From contig JAGNLV010000001.1 of the NCBI GenBank assembly GCA_017999435.1, forward strand, positions 920,993 to 984,992: a stretch of DNA of 64,000 nt. The letters run 5' to 3'. Within the stretch, counting starts at the first letter, position 1, and each line of letters starts with the position of its first letter. This document shows, piece after piece, positions 4,935-63,460 of this stretch. The notes beneath the pieces were generated by a model that was given only the letters and a program-made list of their open reading frames with translations, was not told the DNA's origin and made no database searches. A program made the translations under genes and the position numbers. The stretch comes from Candidatus Zixiibacteriota bacterium (GTDB lineage: Bacteria > Zixibacteria > MSB-5A5 > GN15 > FEB-12).

Positions 4935-6348
4935 GGTTCTCGCGGTCCTCGAGGGCAGGGAGGATGATTTCAAAGCACCCCCCGATGCTGCTGTTTTTAT
5001 ACGTTATCGTCCCGCCGTGGCGTTTGATGATGCCGTAGCAGACGGCCAGGCCGAGGCCGGTGCCTTTCCCCTCCTGCTTGGTGGTGAAGAAGGGTTCGAA
5101 GATGTGGGGGATGATCTCGGGGGGGATGCCCGGGCCGGTGTCGGTAAAAGCGAGCAGGACGCCGTCGGCAACGCGGCGGAGAGCGATGTCGAGGCGGCCG
5201 CCGTTGGGCATGGCGTCGGCGGCGTTGAGGACGATGTTGAGGGCGACCTGCTTCATGTTCTCGGGCGAACCCATGACGAGCGGGAGGTCATCGGCGAACT
5301 CCCGCACCACCATGATGCCGAATTTCTCAAACTGCCGGTCCATGAGGACGAGGACGTCGTCGATCACCTTCCCCAGTTTCATGGGTCGGAGGGCGGTTTT
5401 TTCGGGGCGGTGGAAGTCGAGGAGTTCGCGGACGATACGGGCGATGCGGTCGATTTCCTGGCTGATGATTTCGAGGTAGTTGCCGGTTTCGACGTTGCCG
5501 CGGGCAGTGCGCTGGACCAGCAGGAGGTAGTTCTTGATGATGCCGAGCGGGTTGTTGACCTCGTGGGCGACCCGGGCGGACATTTCGCCGAGAGCGGCGA
5601 GGCGCTCGGTGTGCACGAGCTGCTGCTGGGCAGCCAGCAACTGCTGGGTGGCGGCGCGTTCGGATTCGTAGAGCCGGGCGTTCTCGATAGCCACCGAGAT
5701 CTGGTTGCCGAGGATGGACAGAAATTCGATGTCGTCGAGGCCGAACTCTTTCGCGCCTATTTTCTCGCCGATGAGGACCAGTCCGATGAGGCGGCTCTGG
5801 TAGATCAGCGGGACGACCAGGCCGGGATCGAAACTACGGAGAGCCTCGGCCTCCGGCTCCCGGGAGAAGCCGGCGAGCAGCTCGGAAGTCGGCACGGGGC
5901 GGTTCAGGCGGGCGAGGTAGTCGGCTATTTTGGAGTCGGACGGGAAGGTTGCCTCTTTGGGGGGGAAGGCGCCTCCCCCCTTGCTCTTGGCGAGCGAAAA
6001 GCGGTCCGAGCGGGCGTCCTGCTTGAGGTAGATGGCTCCCTTGGAGGCGGAGACCTGGGCCACGCAGGTGAGGACGAAGGAATCGAGGAGGGTCTGGTAA
6101 TTGAGGACCGAGCTGAAGTTGCGGCTGATTTCGAAGATGGTGTAGAGGTCGAAGATTTTGCGTTTGAGCTGGCGGTTGGCCTCGGTGAGGCGGGTGAGTT
6201 TTTCGGCGGGCAGTTCGACGGCCGCGGCCGCGGCGCGGGCGGCCGCCGGTCCGGGACCCGCGGGGAGCGCCTCCCCTTGAGGGAGGCGTTCGGGATCGGC
6301 CGTCTCCGGCGCCGGCCGGCGGCGCTCTTTTGAATCCATCTCCATCAT
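4927..6348 (-). CDS. GAF-domain sensor histidine kinase
   Basis: 473 aa. A Pro/Ala-rich N-terminal linker (1-48) is followed by a coiled coil and a GAF domain (~70-227). HisKA is at ~245-310 with H262 in [12 protein letters not shown], and the HATPase at 350-467 with [15 protein letters not shown] and GTGLGLAV motifs, so it should be active. There is no transmembrane segment, so the signal is probably sensed in the cytoplasm. Its start codon overlaps the folC stop (ATGA) and its stop overlaps the next kinase start, so translation is coupled. With the downstream hybrid kinase and the NtrC-type protein it forms a three-gene signalling module. The ligand cannot be told from sequence. Confidence 0.9.
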
Positions 6349-24594: not shown

Positions 24595-26121
24595 CTATTT
24601 GAGCAGCATCATCTTCCGCGTCTGGCTGAACCCGGTCGCTTCAAGACGGTACAGGTAGATGCCGGAAGACTGCTCGGAAGCATCCCAGGTGACACTGTGG
24701 TCGCCCGCGTCGTACTGACCATCCGCCAGCACCGCCACCCGCTGCCCCATGATGTTGTAGACGACGAGCGTAACGTGCGACGCGGTCGGCAGCGAGAACC
24801 CAATCTGGGTGGCCGGGTTGAACGGGTTGGGGTAGTTGCCCAGCAGGACGGGCGTTTGATCGTCGGCCGCCAACGGGGGCTCCGGCGGCTCGGGGCCGTT
24901 GATGATAACGACACAGTCGACGCCCTCGATCGGTGTGCCGTCGAGCAGATTGCCGGTCAGAGTCAGCGCCACCGTCTCGCCGGCGTACACTTGGCCGAGC
25001 GCAGCGATAATCTCATCGCGGTAGAACTTGAGCGTCATATCAGTATACCCGTCGGGGCCGGCGGCCGTGCACTGGCACTGCACCGCATCGGCCGGCACCG
25101 GGGCCGCGACATCCTCAAAGCTGTGGCGGATCGGCGAGACGCCTTGCAGGGTCACCGTCGTCCAGTCGATCATCGTCGGATCGAACTCGGCCGTGCCGAG
25201 GATAGCGACCGGGAGGACGCCGCGGGGAGGCCGGACACCGGGATCGGGCTTGGCCGACGGCACGGCATCGCTGAGCTCATCCACTGCGAGGGTCGGTGCC
25301 CCGTCGCGATAGGGGCGCAGATTGAGCGGATTCGGGCAGGAGCCGGGTTTGATGTCGAGGGCGACGGGGAGAAACTCCGGTTCACTGGCCGGTCCCACAC
25401 AAATGTCATCGAACCAGACCGTCCCTTCCTGACACGAAATATCGAGGTAGGCCGGTTCGCTCATCCACGACTCCTCGGGCAGAGTGATCTCGCCCAGGTA
25501 AGACGAATTGACCCAGAACTCGGCATGCAACTGACTGTCACCCGGAAGCGAGAGGCGGCACCTTACGTCATGCCAGGTGTCCAGGGCAAAGCCGGTGTAC
25601 ACGGTTGCACCACCCCACGGGCCCAGCTTGATGTCGCCGTTCGGAAGGAACGTCAAGAGCCCCGGGCAGGGACAGTCCCACCAGTCGGGGCCGGTGCGAA
25701 GCCCGAACATGGCGCGGTAAGGGTGGCAGCCCGAGAGCGGTTCATGGCCATTTGTGACCGAGAACGTGACTTCCAAAGGTAGATCCATGCTGATCGGCCG
25801 AGTGACGACAGAACCCCAACACGAGCCCAGCAGGCCGAACATACGTAAGGAAGCCGATCCGGTGTGGGCGTATGTATGATCGATTTCAATACCGGGGACG
25901 TTGCCGCTCCCATGCCAGTTGACCGACCAGCCAGAGCCGGAGTAATCCTCAAAGCTGTCACACCAAGGCTCGGGCGCGGGAGACAAGAGGTCGCCGTTTG
26001 CGGCAATGACGGCGTGGGAAGGGGCATGCCCGCCGGCCGAAATAGTGGTTGCCCCCCAGGTCGGAGAGGAGACGAGGAAGGCCAACAATAACACCACGAG
26101 AGATTGTTTCCTCAGATCCAT
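24595..26121 (-). CDS. secreted protein with T9SS type-A sorting tail
   Basis: 508 aa from the ATG at 26121, with GGAGG 7 nt upstream. Signal peptide MDLRKQSLVVLLLAFLVSSPTWGA. Residues ~45-240 look like a concanavalin/LamG-type beta-sandwich (DSFEDYSG, TGSASLRMFG, TWHDVRCRL, VWFDDICVG). A second domain starts VALDIKPGSCPNPLN and continues GVLPVAILGTAEFDP..DWTTVTLQGV, a module I know only as a recurrent, unnamed domain of secreted FCB proteins. The last ~80 residues are the sorting tail: NYPNPFNPATQIGFSL, VVYNIMGQRVAVL, GIYLYRLEA, ending KMMLLK. Export via T9SS to the cell surface is the inference. Ligand unknown. Confidence 0.8.
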   Translation of the reverse strand: MDLRKQSLVVLLLAFLVSSPTWGATTISAGGHAPSHAVIAANGDLLSPAPEPWCDSFEDYSGSGWSVNWHGSGNVPGIEIDHTYAHTGSASLRMFGLLGSCWGSVVTRPISMDLPLEVTFSVTNGHEPLSGCHPYRAMFGLRTGPDWWDCPCPGLLTFLPNGDIKLGPWGGATVYTGFALDTWHDVRCRLSLPGDSQLHAEFWVNSSYLGEITLPEESWMSEPAYLDISCQEGTVWFDDICVGPASEPEFLPVALDIKPGSCPNPLNLRPYRDGAPTLAVDELSDAVPSAKPDPGVRPPRGVLPVAILGTAEFDPTMIDWTTVTLQGVSPIRHSFEDVAAPVPADAVQCQCTAAGPDGYTDMTLKFYRDEIIAALGQVYAGETVALTLTGNLLDGTPIEGVDCVVIINGPEPPEPPLAADDQTPVLLGNYPNPFNPATQIGFSLPTASHVTLVVYNIMGQRVAVLADGQYDAGDHSVTWDASEQSSGIYLYRLEATGFSQTRKMMLLK

Positions 26122-26256
26122 CGCAAACCTCCATCGGAACGAGTTCTTCGAGCGCTGTTCGCGCCGAATGGCGCGACACACTAGTCGCTTTCAGCAATTG
26201 TCTTTGCTCAGGGAATAGGTACTGAACGCGAGATTTGTCGGAACCCGAATTCCCGG

Positions 26257-28221
26257 TTATTTCCCGGCCGCCCGCAATTCCCCCTCTGTCACCCACCCCC
26301 CATTTGTCCAGTACCGGATTGACGCGTATCGCTCCCGAATTCCTTCAGAAAGGGTCTTGGAAGGGAGTGCCCCCGAGGAAACCAAGCCCTTGTAGGACAG
26401 CGCAAGCTGCTCTGACACGTCAAGTTCTTCAACCCTAAGAGATTGATCGAAGTAATAGATCAGTTGGGCCTCGGGCTGTGAAGGTATAGGGAGGAGTGTC
26501 ACCTTGATTCTGCCGTGGACAACTTGCGGTTCCATTGCCCCGTAGTGCTGGATACCGAGCGCTCGCGAAATCTCCTCCAATGGAAACAGGACATATGCCG
26601 GCTGGTTGCCTTCTCCACCGAACATGAGATCGGCGCTCATAAGGTTGAAAGGAGGCGAACATCCCTGAGCGCTAAACGGATCCAGCAAGAATAGGCACTT
26701 AGTATCATACGCGTTGTTCCACCCCTGCATCACCAACTTTTGCCGGCCTGCTGAGTCTGCGAACCAGGAGTGGATTCCCGTATATCCGGAGTGGACGTAC
26801 CAACCTAGCGGGTCGCCGACAGAGTCAAAAAACCGAATGTAGCTCCTTGTACCATTCAGGCTGGCGTTCAGAACAGTCATGAATACCGGGCCGTTCTGCG
26901 TATCTCGGAAGGAAAGAGCGGCCACCTCGTAATTCCAGGACGCGAGGAGAGTCTCCGCCGGCTGGCCCGGGATGATGGCACTGCGGCTCCACAACGAATC
27001 GCCGTCCTGATCGAAGACACGGAGAATGGCATTGTCCGGGCAGTCGGAAGCCTGACTCACAAGAACGGCCACTTCATTGTCGGCATCCGAATCGACATCC
27101 ACGATTCTCACAAATGCAAATTCCGGCAGGATCGACTCGCACTGACAAGTCGTGGCCCACAAACGCTCACCGGCCGCGTTTAGGAGGGTTAATTCCTTAC
27201 CAAGGATCTCGTATCGCACCGGGTTATGATCAAACCACCATGGTGCGAAGGTTCGCGTCCATGTGATGGCCAGAAGCACATAGAGCAGTATCGCGAGCAG
27301 GGCCACCTCCGTCTTGATGCTCCGGCCCCAGTGCACCGCTTTGCGGGCCACGAACTGACCGATGCACATCCGCTCGGAGCGGACAATGTTGTAGTTCTCC
27401 ACAACATCGGAGAGGCGCTCGGCGGCAATCAGGCCAAGGCGGCGGCGCGGATAGCGGGCGCCCAGAGCGGCCAGCGCCGCGCGGGCCTCCGCTTCGTTGG
27501 CGGCCGGGATCACGACGTACCGGACGGTCGAGAAGACCGCACGCTCGAGTTTGACGGCGAGCGTGGCGGCGTTGATCGGCAGCAGCGTTCCATTGGCGGC
27601 GATGCTGCCGGTGAACGCCACCTCGGAAGAGACAAATCGCTCGTGGCGCATAATCTCCGGGCGGAGCAACTGCGTGTAGGCGACGAGCGCCGCGGCCAGG
27701 CCGATGGAATCGCCGGTCGCGGTGCGGCTGTTGCCCTCGAGACGGAAGTGGGCATGGAGACTCGCGGCGTCATCGCCGCCCAAATTCGGCAGAGCGGCTT
27801 TGGCGACGCGCGGAAAGATGCCGACGGGTCCGGCTGCTCGGGAGAGGCTGCCGAAAGGTTCGCTGCCGGCCAGACCGCGCAAGAGCGGGCGGACCGACTT
27901 GAGCGAGTCGTACACGACACCGACGAAGGGATCATCCGGCGCCCGCAACTGCCCCTCGAACGTGACTTCATCGGCGGCCAAATCCCCGGGGCGGCGGGTC
28001 CGCGCGCCGATCGGCTCGACCGCGCCGACGAGCGTGTACATCCGCCCGCGGGTGGCCTCGCCGCCGTCGGTTTCGACAAACAGGCAGCGGACGCGGTCGA
28101 ACCAGAGGTGCCCGGTTTCGCTGTCCCATTCGGCGGCGATTTTGTCCAGGCGCGCGGCGGTGGCCGGAGCGGGGGCGCGAAGCCGGTCAATGGCCTCCCG
28201 CAGCCGGTCGCGCTCGATCAC
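26257..28221 (-). CDS. Lon-type Ser/Lys protease domain fused to membrane segment and beta-rich exterior domain
   Basis: 654 aa; the start overlaps the upstream stop by 4 nt. Residues ~115-265 resemble the Lon (S16) proteolytic domain: TGDSIGLAAALVAY with candidate catalytic Ser172, then FTGSIAANGTLLPIN...AVKLERA with candidate Lys224, then YVVIPAANEAEA, matching the Lon order MTGE..GRVLPIGG..KEKL..VIIP. No AAA+ domain is present. A transmembrane helix (VALLAILLYVLLAITW) is near 305-322. The ~330-residue remainder has FG-GAP/VCBS-like turns (RIVDVDSDADNEVAVLVS, RVFDQDGDSLW), so it may be a propeller outside the membrane. Last gene of the leftward arm of the ECF island. A role in cleaving a regulator is inference. 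Confidence 0.7.
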   Translation of the reverse strand: MIERDRLREAIDRLRAPAPATAARLDKIAAEWDSETGHLWFDRVRCLFVETDGGEATRGRMYTLVGAVEPIGARTRRPGDLAADEVTFEGQLRAPDDPFVGVVYDSLKSVRPLLRGLAGSEPFGSLSRAAGPVGIFPRVAKAALPNLGGDDAASLHAHFRLEGNSRTATGDSIGLAAALVAYTQLLRPEIMRHERFVSSEVAFTGSIAANGTLLPINAATLAVKLERAVFSTVRYVVIPAANEAEARAALAALGARYPRRRLGLIAAERLSDVVENYNIVRSERMCIGQFVARKAVHWGRSIKTEVALLAILLYVLLAITWTRTFAPWWFDHNPVRYEILGKELTLLNAAGERLWATTCQCESILPEFAFVRIVDVDSDADNEVAVLVSQASDCPDNAILRVFDQDGDSLWSRSAIIPGQPAETLLASWNYEVAALSFRDTQNGPVFMTVLNASLNGTRSYIRFFDSVGDPLGWYVHSGYTGIHSWFADSAGRQKLVMQGWNNAYDTKCLFLLDPFSAQGCSPPFNLMSADLMFGGEGNQPAYVLFPLEEISRALGIQHYGAMEPQVVHGRIKVTLLPIPSQPEAQLIYYFDQSLRVEELDVSEQLALSYKGLVSSGALPSKTLSEGIRERYASIRYWTNGGWVTEGELRAAGK

Positions 28222-28661
28222 GAGGGTCTCCCCCGCGCCGTCATCGGGGGGTTGGCATCGGCGCCCGATGAAAAGAGCTCTTTGGCCGCCGCGACTTCGC
28301 CGGCGCCCTGGGCGCAGACCATGACGGCTCGTTCAGTCTCCCCCGCATACGCCCAGGCCCGCGCAAGCGCCAGGTCCACGGTCTCCCGCTGTTCCGGGGA
28401 ACCGATTTCCCTGGCGAGGGTGCGGATGGCGGCGAGATTTTCGGGAGGGCAGTCGGCAAGATGTTCGGGGGCGAGCGATTCGGCGAAGAGAGCCGTGTAC
28501 TCATCGAGGTAGGATTGGTACGACGGGTTGGCGCGGTGGGCGGCGAGGTTCGGCCAGAACGCGGCGAGCGCGAGCAGGCGATGGTCGCCGACCGGGCGGG
28601 CGGCGAGCGCGGCTTTGAGGGCGCCGAACGCGCGGGCGAACTGCAGGGACGAGAGGGTCAT
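28218..28661 (-). CDS. small helical hypothetical protein
   Basis: 147 aa, Ala/Leu-rich, predicted mostly helical, with no signal peptide and no motif I recognise. The helical pairs (YLDEYTALFAESLAPEHL, ALARAWAYAGETERAVMVCAQG) resemble TPR-type repeats, so an adaptor role is possible. It begins 8 nt after the anti-sigma-like gene and overlaps the Lon-like gene by 4 nt, so it is translated with them. The GC skew and codon use match its neighbours. Confidence 0.6.
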   Translation of the reverse strand: MTLSSLQFARAFGALKAALAARPVGDHRLLALAAFWPNLAAHRANPSYQSYLDEYTALFAESLAPEHLADCPPENLAAIRTLAREIGSPEQRETVDLALARAWAYAGETERAVMVCAQGAGEVAAAKELFSSGADANPPMTARGRPS

Positions 28662-28669
28662 CGTATCGC

Positions 28670-29524
28670 CTAGGCCTTAAACAACCGAATCGAGAGGCTT
28701 TTGGGGGAACCGGAGAGCCGGAACGACGCCCGGCCGGCCTGAGGCGCCTCGAGCGCGTGGGCCTCGGTTCCCTCGATCACATACACCCGGAGGGCGTCCT
28801 TCTCGTCGATGCCGACGAGGTTCAGGAATTCGAGCGTCACCAGCTTCCCCTCCGTCTTTCCCTCGAAGCGGAGCCGCACGCGGTCGGCTCGGGAGCTTTC
28901 GAGAACGGTCTCCCCGCCGTATTCGGTCCGGTCGGGATCATACGCGAGTTCATCGAGCGTGAACGAGACATCGGGGAGCTTCACCTCCCACTTGAGCGCT
29001 TCGATGTCGGCATCAGCGACATCGGAGAGGTCGGCCCGGCCGGCCGAGTCGGTGAGGAGCTCTTTCTGTATGTCGGGCAGGCGGAGGAGCACGTGCGCAG
29101 CCTGCCGGGGATCATCGGTCACCAACTGGACCCACTGCCGCCGGTCGGGGGCGCTGCGCATGACGCGGAGGACCATTTCGGGGCTTTCGGAGAAATACTC
29201 GCGAAGGCACTCGACGGCGGGCCGCTCCTCCGGGCGGCCATCGGCGGCCAGGAGGTACTCCTGCGGGGGGGCGGCCGGCGCCATGGGGGTCATCGGAATC
29301 ACCCGTCCGCGCAGAGCCTCATTATATATGCGGTCGCGCAACTGCATAGCCGGTGGGGGGATCGGCTCCCGGTCGGACTCGCCCACAACCTGCGTATCCT
29401 GAAGTCCTTCAAGGAATTCCCGGCAGAACTCGCACTCAGCGAGATGCCCCTGCACCACATCCCTGCGGTCGCCGGATAGCTTCCCGTCGAGAAACAGGAG
29501 CAAATCAGTCACGTTCACGTGCAC
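28670..29524 (-). CDS. zinc-finger anti-sigma-like protein
   Basis: 284 aa from a GTG at 29524 with AAGGAG 6 nt upstream. The first ~40 residues are an anti-sigma zinc-finger type (zf-HC2): LLLFLDGKLSGDRRDVVQGHLAECEFCREFL split over ~8-38, with HLAECEFC giving HxxxCxxC. There is no transmembrane segment, unlike most ECF anti-sigmas. The middle (70-180) is acidic and helical. The C-terminal third is beta-rich (YGGETVLESSRADRVRLRFEGK) and ends FRLSGSPKSLSIRLF. The position next to an ECF sigma operon suggests it binds that sigma factor. Binding partner is inferred. Confidence 0.65.
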   Translation of the reverse strand: MHVNVTDLLLFLDGKLSGDRRDVVQGHLAECEFCREFLEGLQDTQVVGESDREPIPPPAMQLRDRIYNEALRGRVIPMTPMAPAAPPQEYLLAADGRPEERPAVECLREYFSESPEMVLRVMRSAPDRRQWVQLVTDDPRQAAHVLLRLPDIQKELLTDSAGRADLSDVADADIEALKWEVKLPDVSFTLDELAYDPDRTEYGGETVLESSRADRVRLRFEGKTEGKLVTLEFLNLVGIDEKDALRVYVIEGTEAHALEAPQAGRASFRLSGSPKSLSIRLFKA

Positions 29525-29557
29525 GGTCTTCTCCTTCCATGCTCCCGTAGAAAATAG

Positions 29558-30619
29558 TCACTGGAGCAGGCCGATGTCGGACTGACCAAGCAAATCGATC
29601 ATCCGGCGGTACCCCTCGTTGAGAGTCGTTTCGAACACATATTTGTAGTCCTGCAGGTAGCGCTCGTGGGCTTCGGGCGGCATCACCTCGCGGAAGTAAG
29701 CCGGGAGGCCGTCGGAGCCGCCGGCGAGGAAATCGGCGAGGTAGAGCTCGAGAGCCTTGCGGAAAGCCTCTCCCTCGGCCGGAGTGATCCGTCCCAGGGT
29801 GACATAGCGGGCGATAGCCGAGGCGGCGGTATCGTCCACCGCCCGTTGGCGGGCCCGATCGCCCGCGGCGCGGGTGCAGAGTTCTTCCGGGCCGGGGAGG
29901 GGCGCGGGGGCGCACTCGGCGCCGGCGAGAAAGGCGGCGTTCACCTCGACCATCAGGGCCAGCAATTCATAGAGCGGGACGACCGGCGGAGCGCCGGTCT
30001 CATCGCGGATCAGGCGGAAAATCGCGGCGCACCAGGAGGATCGATTGGTCGTGCGGTTGAAGGCCGCGAGCACGGTTCGGCGCAGCATGTCAGGCTCGAC
30101 GACAAAGGCATCGGGCCGCGGATGGGGGGCATCCTGAGCAGGGGCCACCAGCACGGCGCGGGTGGAGGGATCGGTCCAGGAGACATACTCCGAGGACGCG
30201 AGGATGTCCCTGACCCGCCGCTTGAGGAGCGCGACCTGCGGATCGTGTTCTCCCCAAAGGCGCGAGATCTGCTGCTTCACCTGGCAGTAGAGGAAGATGC
30301 CGAAGAGGGATTCGAGGCCGGTGATGTCCTCGGGCGGCAGCGCCGGGCAGCCCTGGCGTTTCAGATAGGGGAAGAGCCCAAGGCAGGGGAGGCCGCCGGC
30401 CGGCGCTAAGATACCCGCCAGCACGTCGATGGCCAGGTCCCGCATGGGATCATCGCCGGCATAACCGGCCAGCGGCAGAGGCACGTGGCGGGCGCGCAGG
30501 TTGCGGAGGAAGACAATAGTGCGGCGACAGCTCAGGTCGAAGAAGGCATCGAAGGCGCGCCGGGAGAGGGGCGTGCGAAGGAAGTTCGCGATAATCGAGG
30601 CCACGGGTGTATCTGTCAT
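29558..30619 (-). CDS. unknown 353-aa helical protein, first gene of leftward arm
   Basis: I do not recognise a family. It has no signal peptide or membrane segment and looks mostly helical. It starts MTDTPVASIIANFLRT and has an Arg-rich stretch (LSCRRTIVFLRNLRARH) near 30-45. A charged C-terminal helix reads AHERYLQDYKYVFETTLNEG. It is preceded by a good promoter (-35 TTGTCA, -10 TATCTT) and followed after 33 bp by the zinc-finger gene. In sigma/anti-sigma operons this position often holds the sigma factor, but no sigma region 2 or 4 is evident. Confidence 0.6.
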   Translation of the reverse strand: MTDTPVASIIANFLRTPLSRRAFDAFFDLSCRRTIVFLRNLRARHVPLPLAGYAGDDPMRDLAIDVLAGILAPAGGLPCLGLFPYLKRQGCPALPPEDITGLESLFGIFLYCQVKQQISRLWGEHDPQVALLKRRVRDILASSEYVSWTDPSTRAVLVAPAQDAPHPRPDAFVVEPDMLRRTVLAAFNRTTNRSSWCAAIFRLIRDETGAPPVVPLYELLALMVEVNAAFLAGAECAPAPLPGPEELCTRAAGDRARQRAVDDTAASAIARYVTLGRITPAEGEAFRKALELYLADFLAGGSDGLPAYFREVMPPEAHERYLQDYKYVFETTLNEGYRRMIDLLGQSDIGLLQ

Positions 30620-30686
30620 GGTCGCCGCACCGATCCTGCATTACCGGTCCGCATGGCGCTGCGAGCGGGCTTGCCCTATTGACGGC

Positions 30687-30715
30687 AAGATACGACCTTA
30701 CGGGTCGGTTGACAA
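30687..30715 (-). promoter_or_regulatory. promoter of the leftward arm of the ECF island
   Basis: On the minus strand TTGTCA (30710-30715) and TATCTT (30687-30692) have a 17-nt spacer. The -35 overlaps the plus-strand TTGACA at 30709-30714, so the two arms may share one polymerase-binding segment. Confidence 0.55.
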
Positions 30716-30840
30716 GGGCAACGCGGGGAAATATGGGTATCAGGTGCGAGCCGTGCGAGCGCGGTTTCGTGCACCCCCGGAGGTTTAAATCTCACGCCGG
30801 GCGTTCTTGGCGTTGCTTTTTCGGCGGCGGATCGTATAAA
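30709..30840 (+). promoter_or_regulatory. candidate promoters of the ECF sigma operon
   Basis: Distal: perfect TTGACA (30709-30714) with weak TATGGG 17 nt on (30732-30737). Proximal: TTGCTT (30813-30818), 16-nt spacer, TATAAA (30835-30840), giving a ~65-nt leader before the GTG at 30913. No clear GGAAC-type ECF autoregulated promoter was seen. Confidence 0.4.
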
Positions 30841-30912
30841 TACGCGGACGAACGAGATCCTTCACCGACAACGGCCGGTCCCTGACTGAGGGCTGTCCGC
30901 ATAACCGCAGAT

Positions 30913-31467
30913 GTGACCGAGAGTATCAACATTCTCTGGCGGCGAGTGGTCGACGGCGACCGGGCCGCCTGGGCCGACCTCGTGCGGCAGTTTGCCCCGC
31001 TAGTTATGACGGTGGCGGTGCGCAGCGGGCTGAGTGCGCCCGATGCGGAGGACTGCGGGCAGCAGGTGTGGCTGGCGCTGTACCGGACGCGGAAGAATGT
31101 GCGCGATCCGGCGCGTCTTCCGGCCTGGCTGATCCAGACGACCCGGCGGCGGGCGGTGCGAATGCGACAGCAGCAATCAGCCCGCCGTCAGGTGGAAGCG
31201 GACGCGCCAGAGGCGGCGTCCTTGTGTCTGCCCGACGACCAGGTGGTACAGCTTGAGCAGGCGGCGATTCTCGAGGGGGCGCTAGCGCGGCTCGAGCCGC
31301 GCTGCCGGGACTTGCTGCGGAAGCTCTTTTTCTCGCCGGGCGGGACGACCTACGCGGAAATCGCCCGGCACTTCGGCCTCTCCCCCAACGCGCTGGGACC
31401 GTTGCGCTCGCGGTGTCTGGCGCGCCTGCGAAAAATCCTTGCCGAACTGGGCTACCCGGTGGACTAA
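30913..31467 (+). CDS. ECF-type RNA polymerase sigma factor
   Basis: 184 aa from a GTG start. Region 2 is at ~10-80: DRAAWADLVRQFAPLVMTVAVRSGL, DAEDCGQQVWLALYR (the DAEDxxQ motif) and LPAWLIQTTRRRAVRMRQ. Region 4 is at ~120-180: LEPRCRDLLRKLFF, TYAEIARHFGLSPNALGPLRSRCLARLRK. It directs RNA polymerase to a small regulon. The next gene encodes a small HxxxCxxC protein and then a CHAT protease and a subtilase, all on the same strand, so these are likely its regulators or targets. In Porphyromonas an ECF factor (SigP) works with PorX, and a PorX-like protein is encoded at 10046. Confidence 0.92.
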   Translation: MTESINILWRRVVDGDRAAWADLVRQFAPLVMTVAVRSGLSAPDAEDCGQQVWLALYRTRKNVRDPARLPAWLIQTTRRRAVRMRQQQSARRQVEADAPEAASLCLPDDQVVQLEQAAILEGALARLEPRCRDLLRKLFFSPGGTTYAEIARHFGLSPNALGPLRSRCLARLRKILAELGYPVD

Positions 31468-31516
31468 GCGGGGCCGGTGCGGCTCTTTTAGGGCAGAGAG
31501 TGAAGGAAACCGCCGT

Positions 31517-32077
31517 ATGAAATCATCCGATCGCCATCCCACGCGCGCGCAAATGCTTGCGGCCGCCCGCTCAGGTCCCGGCCGACTCCGCGGACACCTG
31601 CAGAGATGCGCCGAGTGCCTCAAATGGTTTGAGATGCTGCGGCGCTTTTCTCCGGCGGGAAGCGCCGGGTTGATGGCGCCATCCGAGGACGCGGTGGAGC
31701 GATGGATCAACGTTTCGCTGCTGGCGCCGCCGCCGTCACTCCGCACGAAGAGCAGCGGCCGGGTGGTGTTCGACTCGTGGCGGGAGCGGCCGGCCGCCGT
31801 TCGCGATCTCCCGGAGGGGCTGGTGCGGCGGTTGCGCCTGGCGGCGCCTGACCTGGATCTGGAGATTGTCGGCGAGCAGCGGCGGCGGGAGTGGCGATTC
31901 ATCGCGCGGGTGTATCGGGGCCGGACGGCGGCGGGGGATTTCGTGCTCCGGGCGGGGCGGCAGCGCGTGGTTCCGGGCGGGGACGGTTTCCTGACATGGT
32001 CGTCGAGCCGGCCGCCCCGGACGGTTGTGCTGATCTCACCCGACCGGGAAATCCGCTTTGAGAATGTGTCATGGTGA
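31517..32077 (+). CDS. small HxxxCxxC protein, putative anti-sigma
   Basis: 186 aa from the ATG at 31517 with GAAGGA 8 nt upstream. Residues ~20-40 hold GHLQRCAECLKWFEM, which matches the HxxxCxxC half of zf-HC2 anti-sigma zinc fingers. The rest is Arg-rich with beta-strand character toward the end (GDFVLRAGRQRVV, PRTVVLISPDREIRF) and contains no membrane segment. It lies 49 nt after the sigma gene and overlaps the CHAT gene by 7 nt (ATGGTGA). Anti-sigma function is inferred from motif plus position. Confidence 0.6.
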   Translation: MKSSDRHPTRAQMLAAARSGPGRLRGHLQRCAECLKWFEMLRRFSPAGSAGLMAPSEDAVERWINVSLLAPPPSLRTKSSGRVVFDSWRERPAAVRDLPEGLVRRLRLAAPDLDLEIVGEQRRREWRFIARVYRGRTAAGDFVLRAGRQRVVPGGDGFLTWSSSRPPRTVVLISPDREIRFENVSW

Positions 32078-34782
32078 ATATCGGAAGTGACTGCGAGCGC
32101 GCCGCCCGGCGTTTTCTCCAGACGGGCCGGCTGGGCGGCAGGACGCCGGCCGAATTAGCGGCTTCCTGCGACCAGCTTGTCCGTCGGGAAACGGAGCGAT
32201 CAGCCCGGCGCGCGGTGGGTCTGGGAGAGCAGTTTGTCCGCCGGGCCCGCGCCGCCGACCGCACGATGCTCCCGGTTGCGCTTCGCGCACTCGGCTGGGC
32301 GTATGTCGTGGCGGGCAAGTACCAGCCGGCGGCGGCGCGCTATCTAGAGGCGCGGCGGGCCACGCGCGACCCGCTCGCCCGCGCGCGCATCGACCGGATA
32401 CTGATCGACGTGTACATGTACCTGGGCCGGCACGACGAGGCGCTGCGGCGCGGCCGCCGGGCGATCGCGGTGTTCCGCGGGCGCAAGGCCGAGGCCGATC
32501 TGGCCAAGACGGAAGTCAACTGCGCGAACGTCCTGCACCGCCTCGACCGGCACCCCGAAGCGCTGCCGCTCTACCGCCGGGCGGGGGCGTTCTTCGCAAG
32601 CCAGGGGGACGAGCTGGCGGCGGCGTTCTGCCGGTACAACGAGGCTAACACGCTCGTGCAGCTTTTTCATTTCGCCGCCGCGGAGAAGCTCTATTCCTCC
32701 GCCCGCGAGGTTTTTCTCCGGCACGATCATAGGTTGCGCGCGGCCGGCTGCCTGTACGGTCTGGCCTGGCTGCACATGCTGGAGGGCCGCTTTCACGCCG
32801 CTCTGCAGGAACTGGCCGAGTGCGAGGCCCACTATCGCGCGGCCGGGCAGGCGCGCGAGCACCTGCTCTGCGTACTTGATCGCGCAGAGACCTACCTGAG
32901 TTTGAATCTTTTGCCGGATGCGCGCGACACGGCGCGCCGGGCGGCGATGCTGGCCCGCCGGCTGGGTTTGCGCTACGAGCAGGCCAAAGCGGAGTTTTTC
33001 AGGGGCAAGGCGCTGGCAGCGCTCGGCCGGATGAAGGCCGGCCGGACGGCTTTCCGGACGGCGGCCGCGGGCTTTCGAAGAGAGGGAAACGAAGGTTTCC
33101 TCGCCGCGGTGCGGGTGGCGGAGGCGGTAGCCGGAGAATCGGGGCGGGCGCGCGCCCGCGCGCTGGCGGCGCTGCGGGAACGCATGCCGCAGGGGCGGCT
33201 GCCGCTCTGGGAGGCGCTGTGCGATCTGGAGATTCTCAGCGCCGCGCCGGAGGACGGAGGGGCGCGGCGGCGGCTGGCCGCCAACCGCGCGGTCGAGACG
33301 ATGCCGCACGTGCGCGCGCAGTATGTGACGCTGCTGGGGGACAGCGAGGCGCGGCGGGGCCGCCGCCGGGCGGCGACCGGCCACTGGCGCCGGGCCGCCG
33401 AAATCCTGACGGCTGTGCGCGCCCAGCTCCCCCCGCTTGACCTGCGGGCGGCTTTCTCCGAGCGCCACGCGGAACCGTACGAGAAGTTGATCGCGTGCGA
33501 GTGGGAGGCCCATCCCTCGCAGGCGGCGGCCTGGCTGGAGCGCTTTCACACGGCCGGCATCTGGGCGACCGAGGATGCGCGGCTCGACGATCCGGCGCGG
33601 ACGCAGGCGGAGCAGTCGCTGGCCTCGCTGGCGCGGTACGTGGCGGCGGCGGCGCAGCGATCCGACGGCCGGCGGGTGCGCGGCGGGGGGGCGGCGCCGG
33701 CGACATCGTTGCGGCGGCAGCTCGAGGAGCAAATTCGCACCGACCTTGCGCGGTTGGAGCGCAGGCGCGGGAGCGCAGCGGAGCGGCTCGACCGGCTGGG
33801 CGCGGAAATCGCCGCGGCCTCCCGGACCATGCGCCTTGTCCAGTTGCACGCCGTCTCCGGCGACATCATCGGCCTCATCCACGAGGAGGGGCGGCCGCGC
33901 GGCTGCCGACTGGAGGGCGCCGCGCCGGCGGTCGAGCGCCTCCTCCAGCGATGGCGGTTTTTTGTCGAGCGCGCGCCCTATCGCACGGCCGGTGAAACCG
34001 CGGCCGATCTCGCCGATGAACGGCGGCTCCTCGCCCGGTTGGCCGAGACCCTCTGGCGGCCGCTGGACGTGGGCGGGCCGCAGCCAGTGCTGATCGTAGC
34101 CGACGGCGCCCTGGCGAATCTCCCCTGGGCGGCGCTGCCGGTCGGGGGAAGGCCATTGATAGACCGGCATCCGCTGGTGATGGCGCCGAGCGTGCGGCAT
34201 CACCTCGCAGCCGCGCGGCAGCGGACACAGTCGCGGGAGACCAGGATATTTGTCGGCGCCGCGGGGCTTGGCGCGGCGGGCGCGGAGTATGCCCCGCTGC
34301 TGGCCGATGAGCGCAGGCAGACAACGGTTCACAATCCCTGCGGTCGCGCCGACTGGCCGGTTGATTCGGAGGCCGATGTCTGGCATTTCACCGGCCATGC
34401 GCATTTTCGCAGCGACAATCCGTTTTACTCCTTCCTGGAGCTTGCTGACGGGCCGCTGTTCGCCGCCGATTTTCGCCTGCGGCGGAACACGGTGAACCTG
34501 GCGGTGCTGGCGGCCTGTCGGACCGGGTTGTCGTCGTTCTTGCCCGGCGAGGAGTCGACCGGGCTGATTCGCGCGCTGCTGGAAATGGGAGCGCGCAACG
34601 TGCTGGCCAGCCACTGGGCGGTGGCGGACGCCTCGACCGCGCGCTGGATCGAGCGGTTCTATGGGGCGCTCGCTGAAGGGAGCGGACCCGCCGCGGCCGT
34701 GCAGCGGGCAGCCGCGGACGCGCGGGAAGAGTATCCCTCGGCGTACGATTGGGCCGGGTTTTCGCTGTTCGGCGCCGGCTGA
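32071..34782 (+). CDS. TPR-CHAT caspase-like protease
   Basis: 903 aa. Residues ~60-480 are a long run of TPR-like helical repeats (ALRALGWAYVVAGKYQPAAARYL, ANVLHRLDRHPEALPLYRRAG, and so on). A CHAT domain fills ~600-903: LIVADGALANLPWAALP, DVWHFTGHAHF with catalytic-type His776, and LAVLAACRTGLSS with Cys816, then ARNVLASHWAVADAS. This is the His-Cys dyad arrangement of clan CD peptidases, so it should be active. There is no signal peptide, so it acts in the cytoplasm. CHAT-TPR proteins work as proteases switched on by partner binding, for example in type III-E CRISPR. Here it is co-transcribed with an ECF sigma and a putative anti-sigma, which it might cleave. That link is inference. Confidence 0.85.
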   Translation: MVNIGSDCERAARRFLQTGRLGGRTPAELAASCDQLVRRETERSARRAVGLGEQFVRRARAADRTMLPVALRALGWAYVVAGKYQPAAARYLEARRATRDPLARARIDRILIDVYMYLGRHDEALRRGRRAIAVFRGRKAEADLAKTEVNCANVLHRLDRHPEALPLYRRAGAFFASQGDELAAAFCRYNEANTLVQLFHFAAAEKLYSSAREVFLRHDHRLRAAGCLYGLAWLHMLEGRFHAALQELAECEAHYRAAGQAREHLLCVLDRAETYLSLNLLPDARDTARRAAMLARRLGLRYEQAKAEFFRGKALAALGRMKAGRTAFRTAAAGFRREGNEGFLAAVRVAEAVAGESGRARARALAALRERMPQGRLPLWEALCDLEILSAAPEDGGARRRLAANRAVETMPHVRAQYVTLLGDSEARRGRRRAATGHWRRAAEILTAVRAQLPPLDLRAAFSERHAEPYEKLIACEWEAHPSQAAAWLERFHTAGIWATEDARLDDPARTQAEQSLASLARYVAAAAQRSDGRRVRGGGAAPATSLRRQLEEQIRTDLARLERRRGSAAERLDRLGAEIAAASRTMRLVQLHAVSGDIIGLIHEEGRPRGCRLEGAAPAVERLLQRWRFFVERAPYRTAGETAADLADERRLLARLAETLWRPLDVGGPQPVLIVADGALANLPWAALPVGGRPLIDRHPLVMAPSVRHHLAAARQRTQSRETRIFVGAAGLGAAGAEYAPLLADERRQTTVHNPCGRADWPVDSEADVWHFTGHAHFRSDNPFYSFLELADGPLFAADFRLRRNTVNLAVLAACRTGLSSFLPGEESTGLIRALLEMGARNVLASHWAVADASTARWIERFYGALAEGSGPAAAVQRAAADAREEYPSAYDWAGFSLFGAG

Positions 34783-34851
34783 CGCCGAACCTGGAATAGA
34801 TCGGGTGTGAGAAAAATGTCCCGCAGCTTCTTGGATAAAGGAGGCGTTCCT

Positions 34852-37800
34852 ATGATACCGCACTGGACCGGGGCCACCGCAGGGAAGTTTCTGCTGTTTC
34901 TCGCGCTGGCGGCTGCCTTCATCGGCCTGACCGGGTCGTCGCAACCCGGGCCGGGCGTGGCACAGCCGCCGGGCGCGATTCCGCCCAACGCCAACGCCGG
35001 GACGGAGGGTCCGGACACGACTTTCCGGCCGTATGTTCCCGGCGAAGTGGTGGTGAGGCTGTTCAGCGACTCGATCTCGGTTGATTCGATCAACACGCTG
35101 TTCGGCACGACGGTGAAGGAGTATTTCGGCCAGGTCAACATCTATATCCTCGCCACGGCCGACCCGGCGGCCGATATCGAGGCTCTCGTGGAGAACCTGC
35201 GGCCCCTGCCGGGGGTGATATTTGCACACCCCAACTACGTGGTGTCGCCGCTGCAGTCGGTGCAGGGGAGTTTCCCCTTCTCCGATGCCGACAACGTGGG
35301 TTCCTACCCGGAGCAGGAGGCGGCTCTGCGGCTGCGTCTTTCGCAGGCGCACGCGCTGGCGACGGGGGCCGGGGTCAAGGTCGCGGTGGTCGACGGCGGC
35401 GTGAATTTCGCCCACCCGGTGCTCGCGGGAGCAGCGGTTTCGGGCTGGGACTATGTCGACGGCGACGCCGATGCGTTCGATGAGCCGGGGGGCCGCAACA
35501 GCGGCCACGGCACGTTCGTGGCGGGGGTGGTCCATCTGACCGCGCCGGGGGCGCAGATCATCGCCTACCGGGTGGCCGACACCTCCGGGCGGAGCAACGG
35601 CGACCGGGTGGCGGAGGCGATCCTTCGGGCGATCGACGACGGCTGCCGGGTGGTCAATCTCAGCCTCGTGATGACGAACGTCCACGAGGTGCTGCGGAAC
35701 ACGCTCGCCTATGCGCGCAGCCGCGATGTGTTGGTCGTGGCCGCTGCCGGCAACGAGCGGTTGGAGGTGCCGACCTATCCGGCCTCCGATCCGAACGTGG
35801 TGGCGGTCGCGGCGGTCGACACACTCGACCGGCTGGCGGAATTTTCGCGCTACGGCAACCACATCGATCTCTGTGCGCCGGGGGAATGGATCTACGCCCC
35901 GTATTTCGACATGTACGCCTGGTGGAGCGGGACGAGTTTCGCCGCTCCGTTTGTTGCGGGCCAGGCGGCGCTCAAGGTTTCGCAAGCCGGCGGCGCGCTC
36001 GACTGGCGCAGCCTCCACGCCTCGCTGATCGCGACTGCCGAGAACATCTACCCGGCCAACCCGGGCTTTTTCGGGAAACTGGGCGCCGGTTTGGCGAACC
36101 CGCTCCAGGCGCTGCAGGATACGGTCGGTATCGATACGGCCTCGGTGGACCCCGGCGTGCTGGCGCTCACGCTGCCCCCGAACACGGCGGTCCAGCGCTG
36201 TTTCAACCTGTACTCGACCAACCCCAATTCGGTCTTCAACGCCACCGTGCTGGGCGGTAATGTCGCATTCACGACGATCACGGCGGACTCGGTGTTGGGC
36301 GCGAACGCAACCATCTGCTTCACTCTCTCGTCGTCCGGGCTGAGCGAGGGGATCTACGCCGACACGATCCAGTTTGACATCAGCGGCGTGTCGAACAGCC
36401 CGATCTTCGTGCCGCTGAGCCTGTACGTGAGCGACACAGCCGTCATCTCACAGGACGCGGCGGTGAGGCCGACCGGATACTCGTTCTGGCTCCCGGAGGG
36501 CTGGGTGCAGACGATCGACGCGTGCGCGTACCTGACTTCCACCAACGCGCCGGCCGCGTTCACGGTTCGGCGGATCGATACGAGCGCGGCGTCGTTCGTG
36601 GAGATCCTCTCCCCGTCCGGCATGACCAACGACAGCGTGTGCATCCTCCTCCACCCGGCCGGCCTGGCGCCGGGCGTGCACCTCGACACGCTGGTGTACC
36701 GGGTGAGCGGGGTGACGTACGACCTCTACCAGCCGGTGAGTCTGACGATCGGCGACCAGGTGGATTCGGCGGCGGTCAGCCCGATGTACTTCTACTTCAC
36801 GTCGCCGCCGGGCGGCCCGCCGCAGGAGGGGCGCGCATATCTCCGGTCGACCAACGCCCCCTCGGCGTACTATCTCGAGACGGCCGGCGGTTCCGACTGG
36901 CTGCACGTGCCCGATTCGGCCGGGGTGACGAACGATTCCATATCATTCACGATCGCGCCGGCGGCCGGGGTTGTTCCGGGGCTCTACACCGACACGCTTT
37001 ACTGCCACGTGGCGGGGGCGGTGAACACGCCGGCGGTGTATGTCACGCTGGAGGTGCAGGATTCGACGGCTGGAGCGACGGCCACCGCCCACCCCACCTA
37101 CTTTGAGTTTGTCCATGCTCCCTGGGCGGGCGGGCCGGCGCAGGCGGGCGTGTTCCTCTTGGCGTCGACCAATGCCCCGGCGTCCTACTCGGTCGAGGCG
37201 GCCCTGGGAGTGTCGTGGCTGCACCTGGCGGACTCGATCGGGACGACCAACGACTCGGTCCGGTTTACCGTGGACGGCGCGGGTTTGGCCCCCGGCTTCT
37301 ACTGGGACAGCCTCATCTGCCGCGTGACGGGGGTGGAGATACCGGCCGCGGTGCAGGTCCTGCTCACGGTGCTGGATGACACGGGCGGCACGGGGCCAAG
37401 CGCCTATGCGAGTCCCTCCTGGTTCAGTTTCGCAAGCGATCCGCAGACCCCGCCCTACGCCGGATCGTTCGTACTGTCGTCGTCGAACGCCCCGGCGGCG
37501 TTCACGGCCGCGGTCATGTTCTCCTCGCCGTGGCTGCACGTCATCGATGCGGCCGGCACAACCAACGACTCGGTCCGGTTCACGGTCGACGCGGCCGGGC
37601 TGGCCCCCGGTTTCTACAGCGACAGCATCGCCTGCGTGGTCGCCGGGGTGCCCGATTCGGTGCTCGTGCCGGTCCAGCTATCGGTAGCGCCGGAGGACAC
37701 GCTGGGCGGGGATTCGGCGGTGGCCATTCCCGCGAGTTTCAGTCTCACGGCGCCGCAGTATTCGGAGCTCTTGCAGGTGCGCTGTCTCATGCTCTATTCG

Positions 37801-38928
37801 AGCAATGCGCCGGCCCCGTTTACGGCCAGCGTCCGCCACGGAGCGCCGTGGCTGACGCTCTACGGCGCCTCGGGCATGACCAATGACTCGGTGTGTTTCG
37901 GCGCGAGCGCGGCGAGCCTCGGGCAGGGGATCTATGTCGACACGATCGACTGCAGCGTGGAGGGCGTGGCGGCGGCGACGGCGGTCCCGGTGGTGTTTTA
38001 CGTCGTGGACGATTCCGCCGGCCCGGGTCCCTCCGCCTGGGCGGCGCCGCCGACGGTGAGCATCACCGCGCCGTTCGGCCTGCAGGACCTCATCGACTGC
38101 CACTTCGTTCTCAGTTCCACCAACGCCCCGGCCCCGTATGTCGCGTATGCGGCAAACGGCTCGGCCTGGCTGTCGGTGGCGGACTCGGCGGGCGTCACCA
38201 GTGATACGGTGCGGCTGGTCATCAACCCGGCGGCGCCCTTCTCGGCCGGGACATATGTCGACAGCATTGCCTGTCTGGTGGAGGGCGTGGCGCTGCCGGT
38301 GACGGTGCCGGTGATGCTGACGCTGACGGTGGACAGCGGGGGTGCGCCCACCGCGGCGGTCACGCCCGCGACGGTGCACTATTTCGGGCCGTACGGGATG
38401 CTGCCCCCGACCACGAAGTGCGCGCTCGTCACGTCGTCAAATGCGCCCGCGCCGTTCACGGCCTGGGTGGCCGATTCGGTCGGCCGATTCACATCGCTGC
38501 CGGACCCGACGGGAGTGACCGCCGACAGCCTGTGCCTCTACCTCGATCCGGCCGGATTGCCGCCCGGCATCCATGTGGACACGGTGAGAATCAGCGTGGC
38601 CGGGGTGAGCCCGGCGCTCACGCTCATCGTGCAGCTCTCGCTGGACATGCCGAAGGTATCTGAGGTGACCAATTATCCGAACCCGTTCAACCCGGAGACC
38701 AACATTTCGTTCAGTCTGACGGGAGCGACCCGGGTTCAGGTCACGGTGTACAACACCCTCGGCCAAGAGGTTGCCGTGCTTTTGGATAAACGGCTGGAGG
38801 CGGGCCGGCACACCGTTTCGTGGGGCGGCTGCGACGGGGCCGGCCGACCGGCGGCCAGCGGCGTGTACCTGTATCGCATCACGACGGATGAGGGTGTGGT
38901 GTCGCGCAAAATGCTGCTTCTGAAGTAG
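34852..38928 (+). CDS. secreted subtilase (S8) with eight Ig-like repeats and T9SS tail
   Basis: 1358 aa from the ATG at 34852, with AAAGGAGG 7 nt upstream. Hydrophobic signal (FLLFLALAAAFIGLTG), a prodomain-like segment (~60-140), then the S8 catalytic domain with Asp181 (VAVVDGGV), His219 (NSGHGTFVAG) and Ser362 (WSGTSFAAPFVAG), so it is likely active. From ~430 there are eight ~100-residue repeats with the core pattern STNAP..F ... G.TNDSV ... G.Y.D(T/S)I ... V.GV. The last ~85 residues are a T9SS sorting tail (NYPNPFNPETNISFSL ... KMLLLK). It follows the CHAT gene by 69 nt and is probably the end product of the ECF operon, displayed on the cell surface. Substrate unknown. Confidence 0.88.
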   Translation: MIPHWTGATAGKFLLFLALAAAFIGLTGSSQPGPGVAQPPGAIPPNANAGTEGPDTTFRPYVPGEVVVRLFSDSISVDSINTLFGTTVKEYFGQVNIYILATADPAADIEALVENLRPLPGVIFAHPNYVVSPLQSVQGSFPFSDADNVGSYPEQEAALRLRLSQAHALATGAGVKVAVVDGGVNFAHPVLAGAAVSGWDYVDGDADAFDEPGGRNSGHGTFVAGVVHLTAPGAQIIAYRVADTSGRSNGDRVAEAILRAIDDGCRVVNLSLVMTNVHEVLRNTLAYARSRDVLVVAAAGNERLEVPTYPASDPNVVAVAAVDTLDRLAEFSRYGNHIDLCAPGEWIYAPYFDMYAWWSGTSFAAPFVAGQAALKVSQAGGALDWRSLHASLIATAENIYPANPGFFGKLGAGLANPLQALQDTVGIDTASVDPGVLALTLPPNTAVQRCFNLYSTNPNSVFNATVLGGNVAFTTITADSVLGANATICFTLSSSGLSEGIYADTIQFDISGVSNSPIFVPLSLYVSDTAVISQDAAVRPTGYSFWLPEGWVQTIDACAYLTSTNAPAAFTVRRIDTSAASFVEILSPSGMTNDSVCILLHPAGLAPGVHLDTLVYRVSGVTYDLYQPVSLTIGDQVDSAAVSPMYFYFTSPPGGPPQEGRAYLRSTNAPSAYYLETAGGSDWLHVPDSAGVTNDSISFTIAPAAGVVPGLYTDTLYCHVAGAVNTPAVYVTLEVQDSTAGATATAHPTYFEFVHAPWAGGPAQAGVFLLASTNAPASYSVEAALGVSWLHLADSIGTTNDSVRFTVDGAGLAPGFYWDSLICRVTGVEIPAAVQVLLTVLDDTGGTGPSAYASPSWFSFASDPQTPPYAGSFVLSSSNAPAAFTAAVMFSSPWLHVIDAAGTTNDSVRFTVDAAGLAPGFYSDSIACVVAGVPDSVLVPVQLSVAPEDTLGGDSAVAIPASFSLTAPQYSELLQVRCLMLYSSNAPAPFTASVRHGAPWLTLYGASGMTNDSVCFGASAASLGQGIYVDTIDCSVEGVAAATAVPVVFYVVDDSAGPGPSAWAAPPTVSITAPFGLQDLIDCHFVLSSTNAPAPYVAYAANGSAWLSVADSAGVTSDTVRLVINPAAPFSAGTYVDSIACLVEGVALPVTVPVMLTLTVDSGGAPTAAVTPATVHYFGPYGMLPPTTKCALVTSSNAPAPFTAWVADSVGRFTSLPDPTGVTADSLCLYLDPAGLPPGIHVDTVRISVAGVSPALTLIVQLSLDMPKVSEVTNYPNPFNPETNISFSLTGATRVQVTVYNTLGQEVAVLLDKRLEAGRHTVSWGGCDGAGRPAASGVYLYRITTDEGVVSRKMLLLK
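36139..38652 (+). repeat. eight tandem ~300-bp coding repeats within the subtilase
   Basis: Eight protein repeats of ~100 residues each. Repeats 2-8 carry the SSNAP/STNAP motif and a TNDS/TSDT/TADS motif ~35 residues later. DNA copies have diverged, so recent duplication is not evident except between repeats 4 and 5, which share long identical stretches such as GTTNDSVRFTVD. Confidence 0.8.
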
Positions 38929-60763: not shown

Positions 60764-60792
60764 CCATTCTTCCCCGATTCCTTCATCCGAAT

Positions 60793-61776
60793 CTACAACC
60801 TGCTCCCCGTGGAGTCAACTTCATTGACCGGACGTACGGCGGCCGCCCCCGGCTCGCGGTGGAGCCGCAGCGAGGCCCCGAGGTAGGCGCCGGCGGGGCC
60901 TTCCCCCAGCGGGGCGGGTTCTTCCCGCACCTCGATCCTGATGCGGCAGTCCATGTGTCCGGGCATGCTAAACTCGAGGATGTTCGCCAGGCGCTGCCGG
61001 CAGGCGCCTCCCTCGATCCAGTCCGCGGCGCGGTCGGCGGGGACCTCGTGCACGACCACCTCGCACCCGTTGTCGCGGTCCGTATACTCCCGGCCGAGAA
61101 CCAGCTCGTTTCCCAGCCGGCTGAACTGCTGTCCCAGGCGGGTCTGAATGTCCTGGGGGATCTCCTGCGGGAGGGGGACGTTCTCAGCGATGGAGAACGG
61201 GAGGCCGAACACCGCCTGGAGGATGCGCGCGACCCGCGCGGGGTTTCCCGACCAGTTGTTGAAAGTGGGCATGACGGTCAGCCAGAAGAGGGCCTCGGAG
61301 GTGGTCATGGCGGCCGTTTCCAGGCTGAAACCGAAGAGGTCGAGCACGCGGAGAACGTGGCGGCGGTCGGTGGCGCCGCCGGAAAACCGGATCACCTCGT
61401 GGCGAGCCTCGGCGGTCCAGCGGATGACGGAACCGTCGAAGGGCGCCATGAGGGCGCGGGCGCGGTCTTCCCAGTGCACGCCGCTCAGGCGGCTGACACC
61501 CTCCAGGCCGTGGAAAAACTGGTAAGGGAGATAGTCGACCACGCTGGAGTACCCGACGTCGAGGCTGATCTCGGTGTCGGGGTGCAGGGGCGTTCCGGGA
61601 GCGGGCTCCTGCGAGTGCACCTCGCCGCGGTAGTTCAGGAACGGTCCCACCGCCCGCAGGTGGACGGCGCCGGGGTCGACGCCGAGTTTGTGGAGGATGA
61701 TGATCGCCGTGACGTAGTGGAGTTTCTGGCGCCGGTCGCACAGATCGGGCATGAGGGGCGGTCCGGCGGCGGTCAT
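60793..61776 (-). CDS. tssG: T6SS baseplate wedge protein TssG
   Basis: 327 aa. Its ATG overlaps the tssF stop (ATGA), the usual tssFG coupling. It carries VDYLPYQFFHGLEGVSRLSG near 80-100, a helical core (FWLTVMPTFNNW, PARVARILQAVFGLPFSI) and LVLGREYTDRDNG, which corresponds to the TssG gripper segment. It binds TssF and TssK in the baseplate. Sequence is divergent, so the call leans on order and size. Confidence 0.72.
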   Translation of the reverse strand: MTAAGPPLMPDLCDRRQKLHYVTAIIILHKLGVDPGAVHLRAVGPFLNYRGEVHSQEPAPGTPLHPDTEISLDVGYSSVVDYLPYQFFHGLEGVSRLSGVHWEDRARALMAPFDGSVIRWTAEARHEVIRFSGGATDRRHVLRVLDLFGFSLETAAMTTSEALFWLTVMPTFNNWSGNPARVARILQAVFGLPFSIAENVPLPQEIPQDIQTRLGQQFSRLGNELVLGREYTDRDNGCEVVVHEVPADRAADWIEGGACRQRLANILEFSMPGHMDCRIRIEVREEPAPLGEGPAGAYLGASLRLHREPGAAAVRPVNEVDSTGSRL

Positions 61777-63434: not shown

Positions 63435-63460
63435 GCCGGATCACCCATTTCGCAGCCGCC

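Follow-up and report, generated by a model that had tools for sequence, protein, structure and literature searches.

Two gene cassettes are encoded head to head

We analysed a 64,000-nucleotide stretch of DNA (the window) from the 3.5-Mb genome of a Candidatus Zixiibacteriota bacterium, in which genes for an extracytoplasmic function (ECF) sigma factor, two anti-sigma-type proteins and three classes of protease lie close together. An initial annotation had described these genes as one island around the ECF factor. The island consists of two independent cassettes, which are encoded head to head. Cassette A, with all of its features on the forward (+) strand, contains the genes for the ECF sigma factor, a protein with an HxxxCxxC motif, a TPR-CHAT protease and a secreted subtilase, in this order. 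Cassette B, with all of its features on the reverse (-) strand, starts with the gene for a 353-amino-acid protein (p353), followed by those for a zf-HC2 protein, a membrane protein with a Lon domain and a cargo protein with a sorting tail of the type IX secretion system (T9SS). All genes named in the initial annotation were recovered at their positions, and their family assignments hold (matches to TIGR02937, PF13490, LonB, PF12770, PF00082 and TIGR04183). It had overlooked p353, a 147-amino-acid open reading frame (ORF) at 28218-28661, the T9SS-tailed protein at 24595-26181 and the two-cassette structure.

Related genomes were searched with the sigma factor and the Lon protein, and the surroundings of the matches were fetched and mapped using profiles built from the window genes. 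The conserved neighbourhood that the initial annotation had suggested looking for was found for cassette A as well as for cassette B: related genomes show the gene order of cassette A again at about 45 loci, and p353, zf-HC2 and Lon genes are found together in about 30 loci. Gene content and order, catalytic residues, the homology of the anti-sigma domains, the conserved motifs described below (LAA and D-S/R) and the presence of T9SS and ClpX genes were all computed from the sequence.

The window contains no CRISPR-like direct repeats. PADLOC matched only generic subtilase and IetS models in the window and no CRISPR model, and a SAVED domain was not matched at the locus, which agrees with the initial annotation. 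Membership in a CRISPR or defence system was dismissed because the window has neither repeats nor a specific PADLOC match. In the genome as a whole, the marker SprA_N and 51 T9SS tails were found, which suggests that a T9SS is present, and ClpX is encoded as well.

Cassette A combines an ECF sigma factor with a putative inhibitor and two proteases

The sigma factor gene (30913-31467) matches TIGR02937 (1.5e-19), Sigma70_r2 (PF04542, 1.1e-10) and PF04545 (2.5e-4), and sigma regions 2 and 4 are both found in its product. Relatives share 40-53% identity. The next gene (31517-32077) encodes the HxxxCxxC protein, a candidate anti-sigma factor. This protein has no Pfam match, but the N-terminus of its family is homologous to the zf-HC2 domain of cassette B when family profiles are compared (hhalign 95.7%, E 1e-8). 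For the C-terminal beta parts of this protein and the zf-HC2 protein, no homology was detected. The motif residues H27, C31 and C34 (31595-31618) are kept in 23 of the 42 family members. Four further residues, D86, S87, R96 and R104, directly follow the anti-sigma domain and are invariant (42/42); the segment from D86-S87 to R96 (31772-31804) holds candidate cut sites for the CHAT protease, and a D-S or R site would suit a caspase-like CHAT enzyme.

The TPR-CHAT protease (32071-34782; PF12770 3.1e-37, TPR_12) has a putative catalytic pair, H776 and C816, conserved in 44 of 45 members. The subtilase (34852-38928; PF00082 1.2e-38, TIGR04183 1e-10) is composed of a signal-like N-terminus, a prodomain, repeats and a T9SS tail. 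Its triad D181/H219/S362 is kept in nearly all members. The usual form in relatives is about 450 amino acids long; the window subtilase is enlarged and carries the T9SS tail in addition.

Counting only loci with a sufficiently long contig, the sigma factor gene is followed by the HxxxCxxC gene in 46 of 53 loci, by the CHAT gene in 45 of 51 and by the subtilase gene in 36 of 44. The broad profile also picked up other sigma factors, which account for several of the exceptions. A second complete copy of cassette A (L009) is present in the genome of the window. The same genome has a third, divergent and rearranged cassette A (L010, contig C2, 7188-12985), where the TPR-CHAT gene has the opposite orientation to the genes for the sigma factor, the anti-sigma-type protein and the subtilase. 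A lipoprotein-like gene coding for about 300-400 amino acids often lies 3′ of the cassette A subtilase (L009 13452-14654, L045 14493-15476, L054 507-1427 and others); it is not present downstream of the window subtilase. A genome-collection scan with the CHAT protein gave no confirmed relatives, and a plasmid search with the same protein gave only partial matches, which mostly cover the CHAT domain. In L041, L045, L053 and L160 a promoter-like pair, ACAGAG-N16-TCGTT, recurs 5′ of the sigma factor gene and is perhaps an autoregulated ECF promoter of that cassette A branch.

Cassette B contains a Lon-domain protein beside an anti-sigma-type protein

The zf-HC2 protein (28670-29524; PF13490 1.8e-5, above the Pfam cut-off) consists of a four-helix anti-sigma-type domain, a linker and beta domains. 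In its AlphaFold model (predicted local distance difference test score, pLDDT, 86) the four helices and the linker are followed by beta structure like that of Ig or TRAF-like domains. The HxxxCxxC motif (H27, C31 and C34; 29423-29446) is invariant in 26 of 26 sequences. The linker is variable in the family (about 3 bits per column) apart from the motif [L/I/M]-A-A-x-G, which usually reads LAADG, as it does in the window protein (amino acids 92-96; 29237-29251). Both alanines are invariant (28/28) and were found again in all 15 distinct sequences fetched later, the Abyssobacteria one included; one of these 15 reads NAADG. The motif sits in a low-confidence loop of the AlphaFold model. We propose it as a cut site with a hidden XAA degron. 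RseA fragments and ssrA tags have similar ends. In the RsgI system, XAA-ended anti-sigma fragments are substrates of ClpXP (PMC12203970). We predict that the Lon domain cuts after LAA and thereby makes the anti-sigma domain a ClpXP substrate.

The Lon protein is encoded at 26257-28221 and is composed of a Lon proteolytic domain, one membrane helix and a C-terminal FG-GAP-like domain. The Lon domain is weakly matched by Pfam (0.006) and clearly by comparison of the family profile with Archaeoglobus LonB structures (2.7e-6). Neither an ATPase domain nor SAVED was matched in this protein. The putative catalytic residues are Ser172 (codon at 27706-27708), which aligns with the Lon GdS motif, and Lys224 (27550-27552), which aligns with the LonB lysine; both are invariant in the family. 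Hydropathy predicts a single hydrophobic segment, the membrane helix at amino acids 300-326 (27244-27324). Positive charge is greater on the Lon-domain side of the helix in nearly all members, and FG-GAP_3 repeats were matched in the C-terminal half of 5 of 18 members. The single helix, the charge bias and the FG-GAP matches together predict a protease inside the cell and a propeller-like sensor outside. The Lon protein is thus likely a receptor protease with a predicted periplasmic FG-GAP propeller. Its named relatives come mostly from Candidatus Zixiibacteriota and in one case from Candidatus Abyssobacteria.

In most relatives a helical N-terminal domain and the Lon domain are encoded in one ORF. 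In the window this N-terminal part (147 amino acids, 28218-28661) is a separate ORF that overlaps the Lon ORF by 4 bp, the split being an ATGA overlap at 28218-28221. Either the gene has truly been split and its two parts are translated in a coupled way, or the split is a frameshift introduced by sequencing. In one genome (G090), two copies of cassette B (L213 and L214) break off at an identical position within the Lon gene, where the contig ends in both. Their first approximately 120 bases are identical and the remainder is about 81% identical; the identical part is a shared repeat, possibly from recent gene conversion.

The last gene of cassette B codes for a 528-amino-acid exported protein with a T9SS type A sorting tail (24595-26181; TIGR04183 3.9e-10), here termed cargo. 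Of 27 loci, 16 have an ORF with a T9SS tail 3′ of the Lon gene on the same strand, where a few percent would be expected.

The first gene of the cassette encodes p353 (29558-30619), a helical protein with no Pfam or other family match and an AlphaFold model with a pLDDT of 88.6. Its gene stands 5′ of the zf-HC2 gene in almost every cassette B locus and occupies the slot in which a sigma factor gene would stand. Among 132 genomes, p353 was found in 38, the Lon protein in 33 and both in 32 (Fisher p 2e-23). Matches to p353 without a Lon gene mostly lie at a contig end; contigs that end inside the Lon gene are largely a selection effect of the p353-only matches. In L204 (genome G116, 4241-6228) the p353 and zf-HC2 genes are not followed by a Lon gene and the contig continues; this pair is perhaps a remnant. 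We considered p353 as a recognisable sigma factor and rejected this at the sequence level, since neither its sequence nor its profile showed detectable similarity to sigma regions. Sigma factor and TFIIB chains are common among the matches of p353 to folds in the PDB, with a best E value of 0.27, which is not significant.

Two parallel proteolytic switches are proposed

The initial annotation had proposed a proteolytic switch that turns on a surface protease. Conserved gene order, homologous anti-sigma domains, intact catalytic residues and invariant motifs argue for such a switch, and as a hypothesis, the cutting of an anti-sigma protein by a protease to release transcription is well supported. 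The single switch should be split in two. We regard it as somewhat better than an even chance that the locus encodes two parallel switches arranged head to head, each with a protease, an anti-sigma-type protein and a secreted product. The topology, the substrate pairs, the cut sites, the signals and every regulatory step given in the following are what we infer.

In cassette A, the HxxxCxxC protein would keep the ECF sigma factor inactive. A signal would reach the TPR part of the CHAT protease, which would then cut the inhibitor directly after its anti-sigma domain, and the freed sigma factor would lead to transcription of the operon including the secreted subtilase. In cassette B, the Lon-domain protein would be a one-piece membrane receptor, with the FG-GAP domain outside sensing a ligand and the Lon domain inside cutting the zf-HC2 protein between LAA and DG. 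The new C-terminus (-LAA) would be a ClpXP degron, and the anti-sigma domain would be destroyed. The partner released in this way would be p353, which is encoded in the same operon, or an ECF factor, and more T9SS-exported cargo would result.

A more specific version for cassette B is tentative and at present doubtful: it might represent a new class of system in which a one-protein transmembrane receptor protease (FG-GAP sensor, single helix and ATP-independent Lon domain) cuts a soluble zf-HC2 protein between LAA and DG, exposes a ClpXP degron and frees p353, which would be a transcription factor unlike known sigma factors in sequence.

Several observations weigh against the two-switch model. 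The zinc motif is lost in 19 of the 42 cassette A HxxxCxxC-family proteins. The invariant residues may be structural and not cut sites. A search of the window for a shared promoter motif gave none, and the ACAGAG-N16-TCGTT pair is absent there. For cassette B, the comparison of the p353 profile with sigma factors gave scores close to those of the nulls (reversed profiles and TPR windows).

The two cassettes could also form a single integrated switch, as the initial annotation implied in placing both protease types at one ECF factor. Both proteases would then act on this factor through the two anti-sigma proteins, with the Lon arm sensing outside and the TPR-CHAT arm inside. The homology of the two anti-sigma domains would fit this, as would the adjacency of the cassettes in three lineages: the window, where they are divergent; L054 and L055, two species of one genus, where they lie on the same strand; and G006, where the junction (L084) is on the same strand and involves a more distant set of sigma, zf-like and CHAT genes. 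The chance of three such lineages among about 18 genera with both cassettes is roughly 1e-4, a post hoc estimate in which genome length, copy number and distance were approximated. However, the Lon and zf-HC2 genes belong to cassette B, which normally has no ECF gene nearby; no sigma factor gene is recognisable in the sequence fetched around the Lon gene in 29 of the 33 Lon loci. Most cassette A loci in turn have no Lon gene, and the joined cases differ in their arrangement. The cassettes join in only these three lineages, and we consider an integrated switch improbable. The junction may reflect cross-talk, but the cassettes are separate units.

We find it similarly hard to favour a model in which the CHAT protease targets the sigma factor itself or another protein, with the HxxxCxxC protein serving as adaptor or sensor. 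For the ECF54 group, which is described as lacking an anti-sigma factor, proteolysis without such a factor has been proposed; its conserved neighbourhood includes CHAT and subtilase genes, and a carboxypeptidase is also described (PMC8999054). The loss of zinc ligands mentioned above is consistent with such a model. On the other side, the anti-sigma-type domain of the 31517 protein is homologous to zf-HC2, the gene of this protein stands between those of sigma factor and protease in the 46 of 53 loci counted above, and the invariant D-S and R residues directly follow that domain. The linkage of ECF factor, CHAT and subtilase is already known from ECF54 (PMC8999054), and the ECF factor of cassette A is likewise encoded with CHAT and subtilase genes. 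It differs from ECF54, going by the description of that group, in the anti-sigma-type protein and in that no carboxypeptidase was found among the mapped genes. Since cassette A has an anti-sigma-type protein between sigma factor and CHAT protease, we did not file it as ECF54.

Least probable of all is that cassette B is no transcription switch and that its Lon protein is a quality-control or processing protease tied to T9SS export with zf-HC2 and p353 as adaptors: the missing sigma factor gene near most cassette B loci, the unclassified p353 and the frequent T9SS-tailed cargo gene 3′ of Lon would agree with this, but the Lon domain is predicted to be cytoplasmic, away from the exported cargo, and the invariant Ala-Ala in the otherwise variable linker of the neighbouring zf-HC2 protein fits a protease substrate.

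Comparison with known systems

The two proposed switches each resemble a CRISPR-associated system. In type III CRISPR systems, the Lon protease CalpL cuts the anti-sigma protein CalpT (PMC11417357). Cassette B resembles CalpL/CalpT/CalpS in having an ATPase-free Lon domain with a Ser/Lys dyad encoded beside an anti-sigma-type protein, and in the proposed release by cutting of the inhibitor, with ClpXP finishing (PMC11417357). It differs in that SAVED and CRISPR are absent and sensing is assigned to a predicted extracytoplasmic part of the membrane protein, its FG-GAP domain. Furthermore, the operon has p353 and no recognisable sigma factor, and the inhibitor is the zf-HC2 protein.

In the type III-E Craspase, the TPR-CHAT protease Csx29 cuts Csx30, the inhibitor of CASP-sigma (PMC10028731). 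Similarly, the TPR-CHAT gene of cassette A adjoins those of an ECF sigma factor and of the protein that likely inhibits it. In contrast to Craspase, the cassette genes include no Cas7-11/gRAMP, Csx30 or Csx31, and the Csx29 model matched the CHAT protein with only 0.036. The inhibitor of cassette A would be a small HxxxCxxC protein, and the cassette also encodes a secreted subtilase. Predicted conflict systems contain neighbourhoods of caspase, ECF and TPR genes (PMC8195603), and cassette A likewise links the gene of a caspase-fold protease to that of an ECF sigma factor. TRADD-N/EACC2 were not found here, and the order of sigma, HxxxCxxC, CHAT and subtilase genes differs from that in PMC8195603. 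As in pairs of ECF factors with zinc anti-sigma proteins (ZAS/zf-HC2), a four-helix-type domain with HxxxCxxC is encoded beside the sigma factor and is its candidate partner.

In RseA and RsiW a hidden XAA degron follows the anti-sigma domain on its C-terminal side. The candidate degron of cassette B is placed in the same way, as it is in RsgI (PMC12203970). In RseA, RsiW and RsgI a membrane anti-sigma factor is cut by site-1 and site-2 proteases, whereas the candidate inhibitor of cassette B is soluble and the protease itself would be a membrane receptor.

CRISPR systems are known to contain anti-sigma switches that are released by a protease, either a SAVED-Lon or a TPR-CHAT enzyme. Here both protease types occur in conserved cassettes without a sign of CRISPR, which suggests that the CRISPR versions may derive from general signalling parts. 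Judging from these sequences, the bacteria probably switch genes on by cutting an inhibitor. What is new here lies mainly in cassette B. A description of it was not found in the literature searched, which was covered in part, and no such signalling cassette turned up there for this phylum; cassette B appears to be undescribed. If the proposed mechanism is true, it would be a simple transmembrane signal route that unites sensor and protease in a single polypeptide and uses a precise cleavage motif.

Neighbouring genes

A further group of genes in the window is related to type VI secretion. Upstream of these genes, two proteins of 1165 and 740 amino acids are encoded, which have no Pfam match at 1e-5. 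The type VI secretion genes themselves are located at 59321-63835 on the reverse strand and code for a TssK/VasE-like protein, TssG, TssF and a gp25-like baseplate protein.

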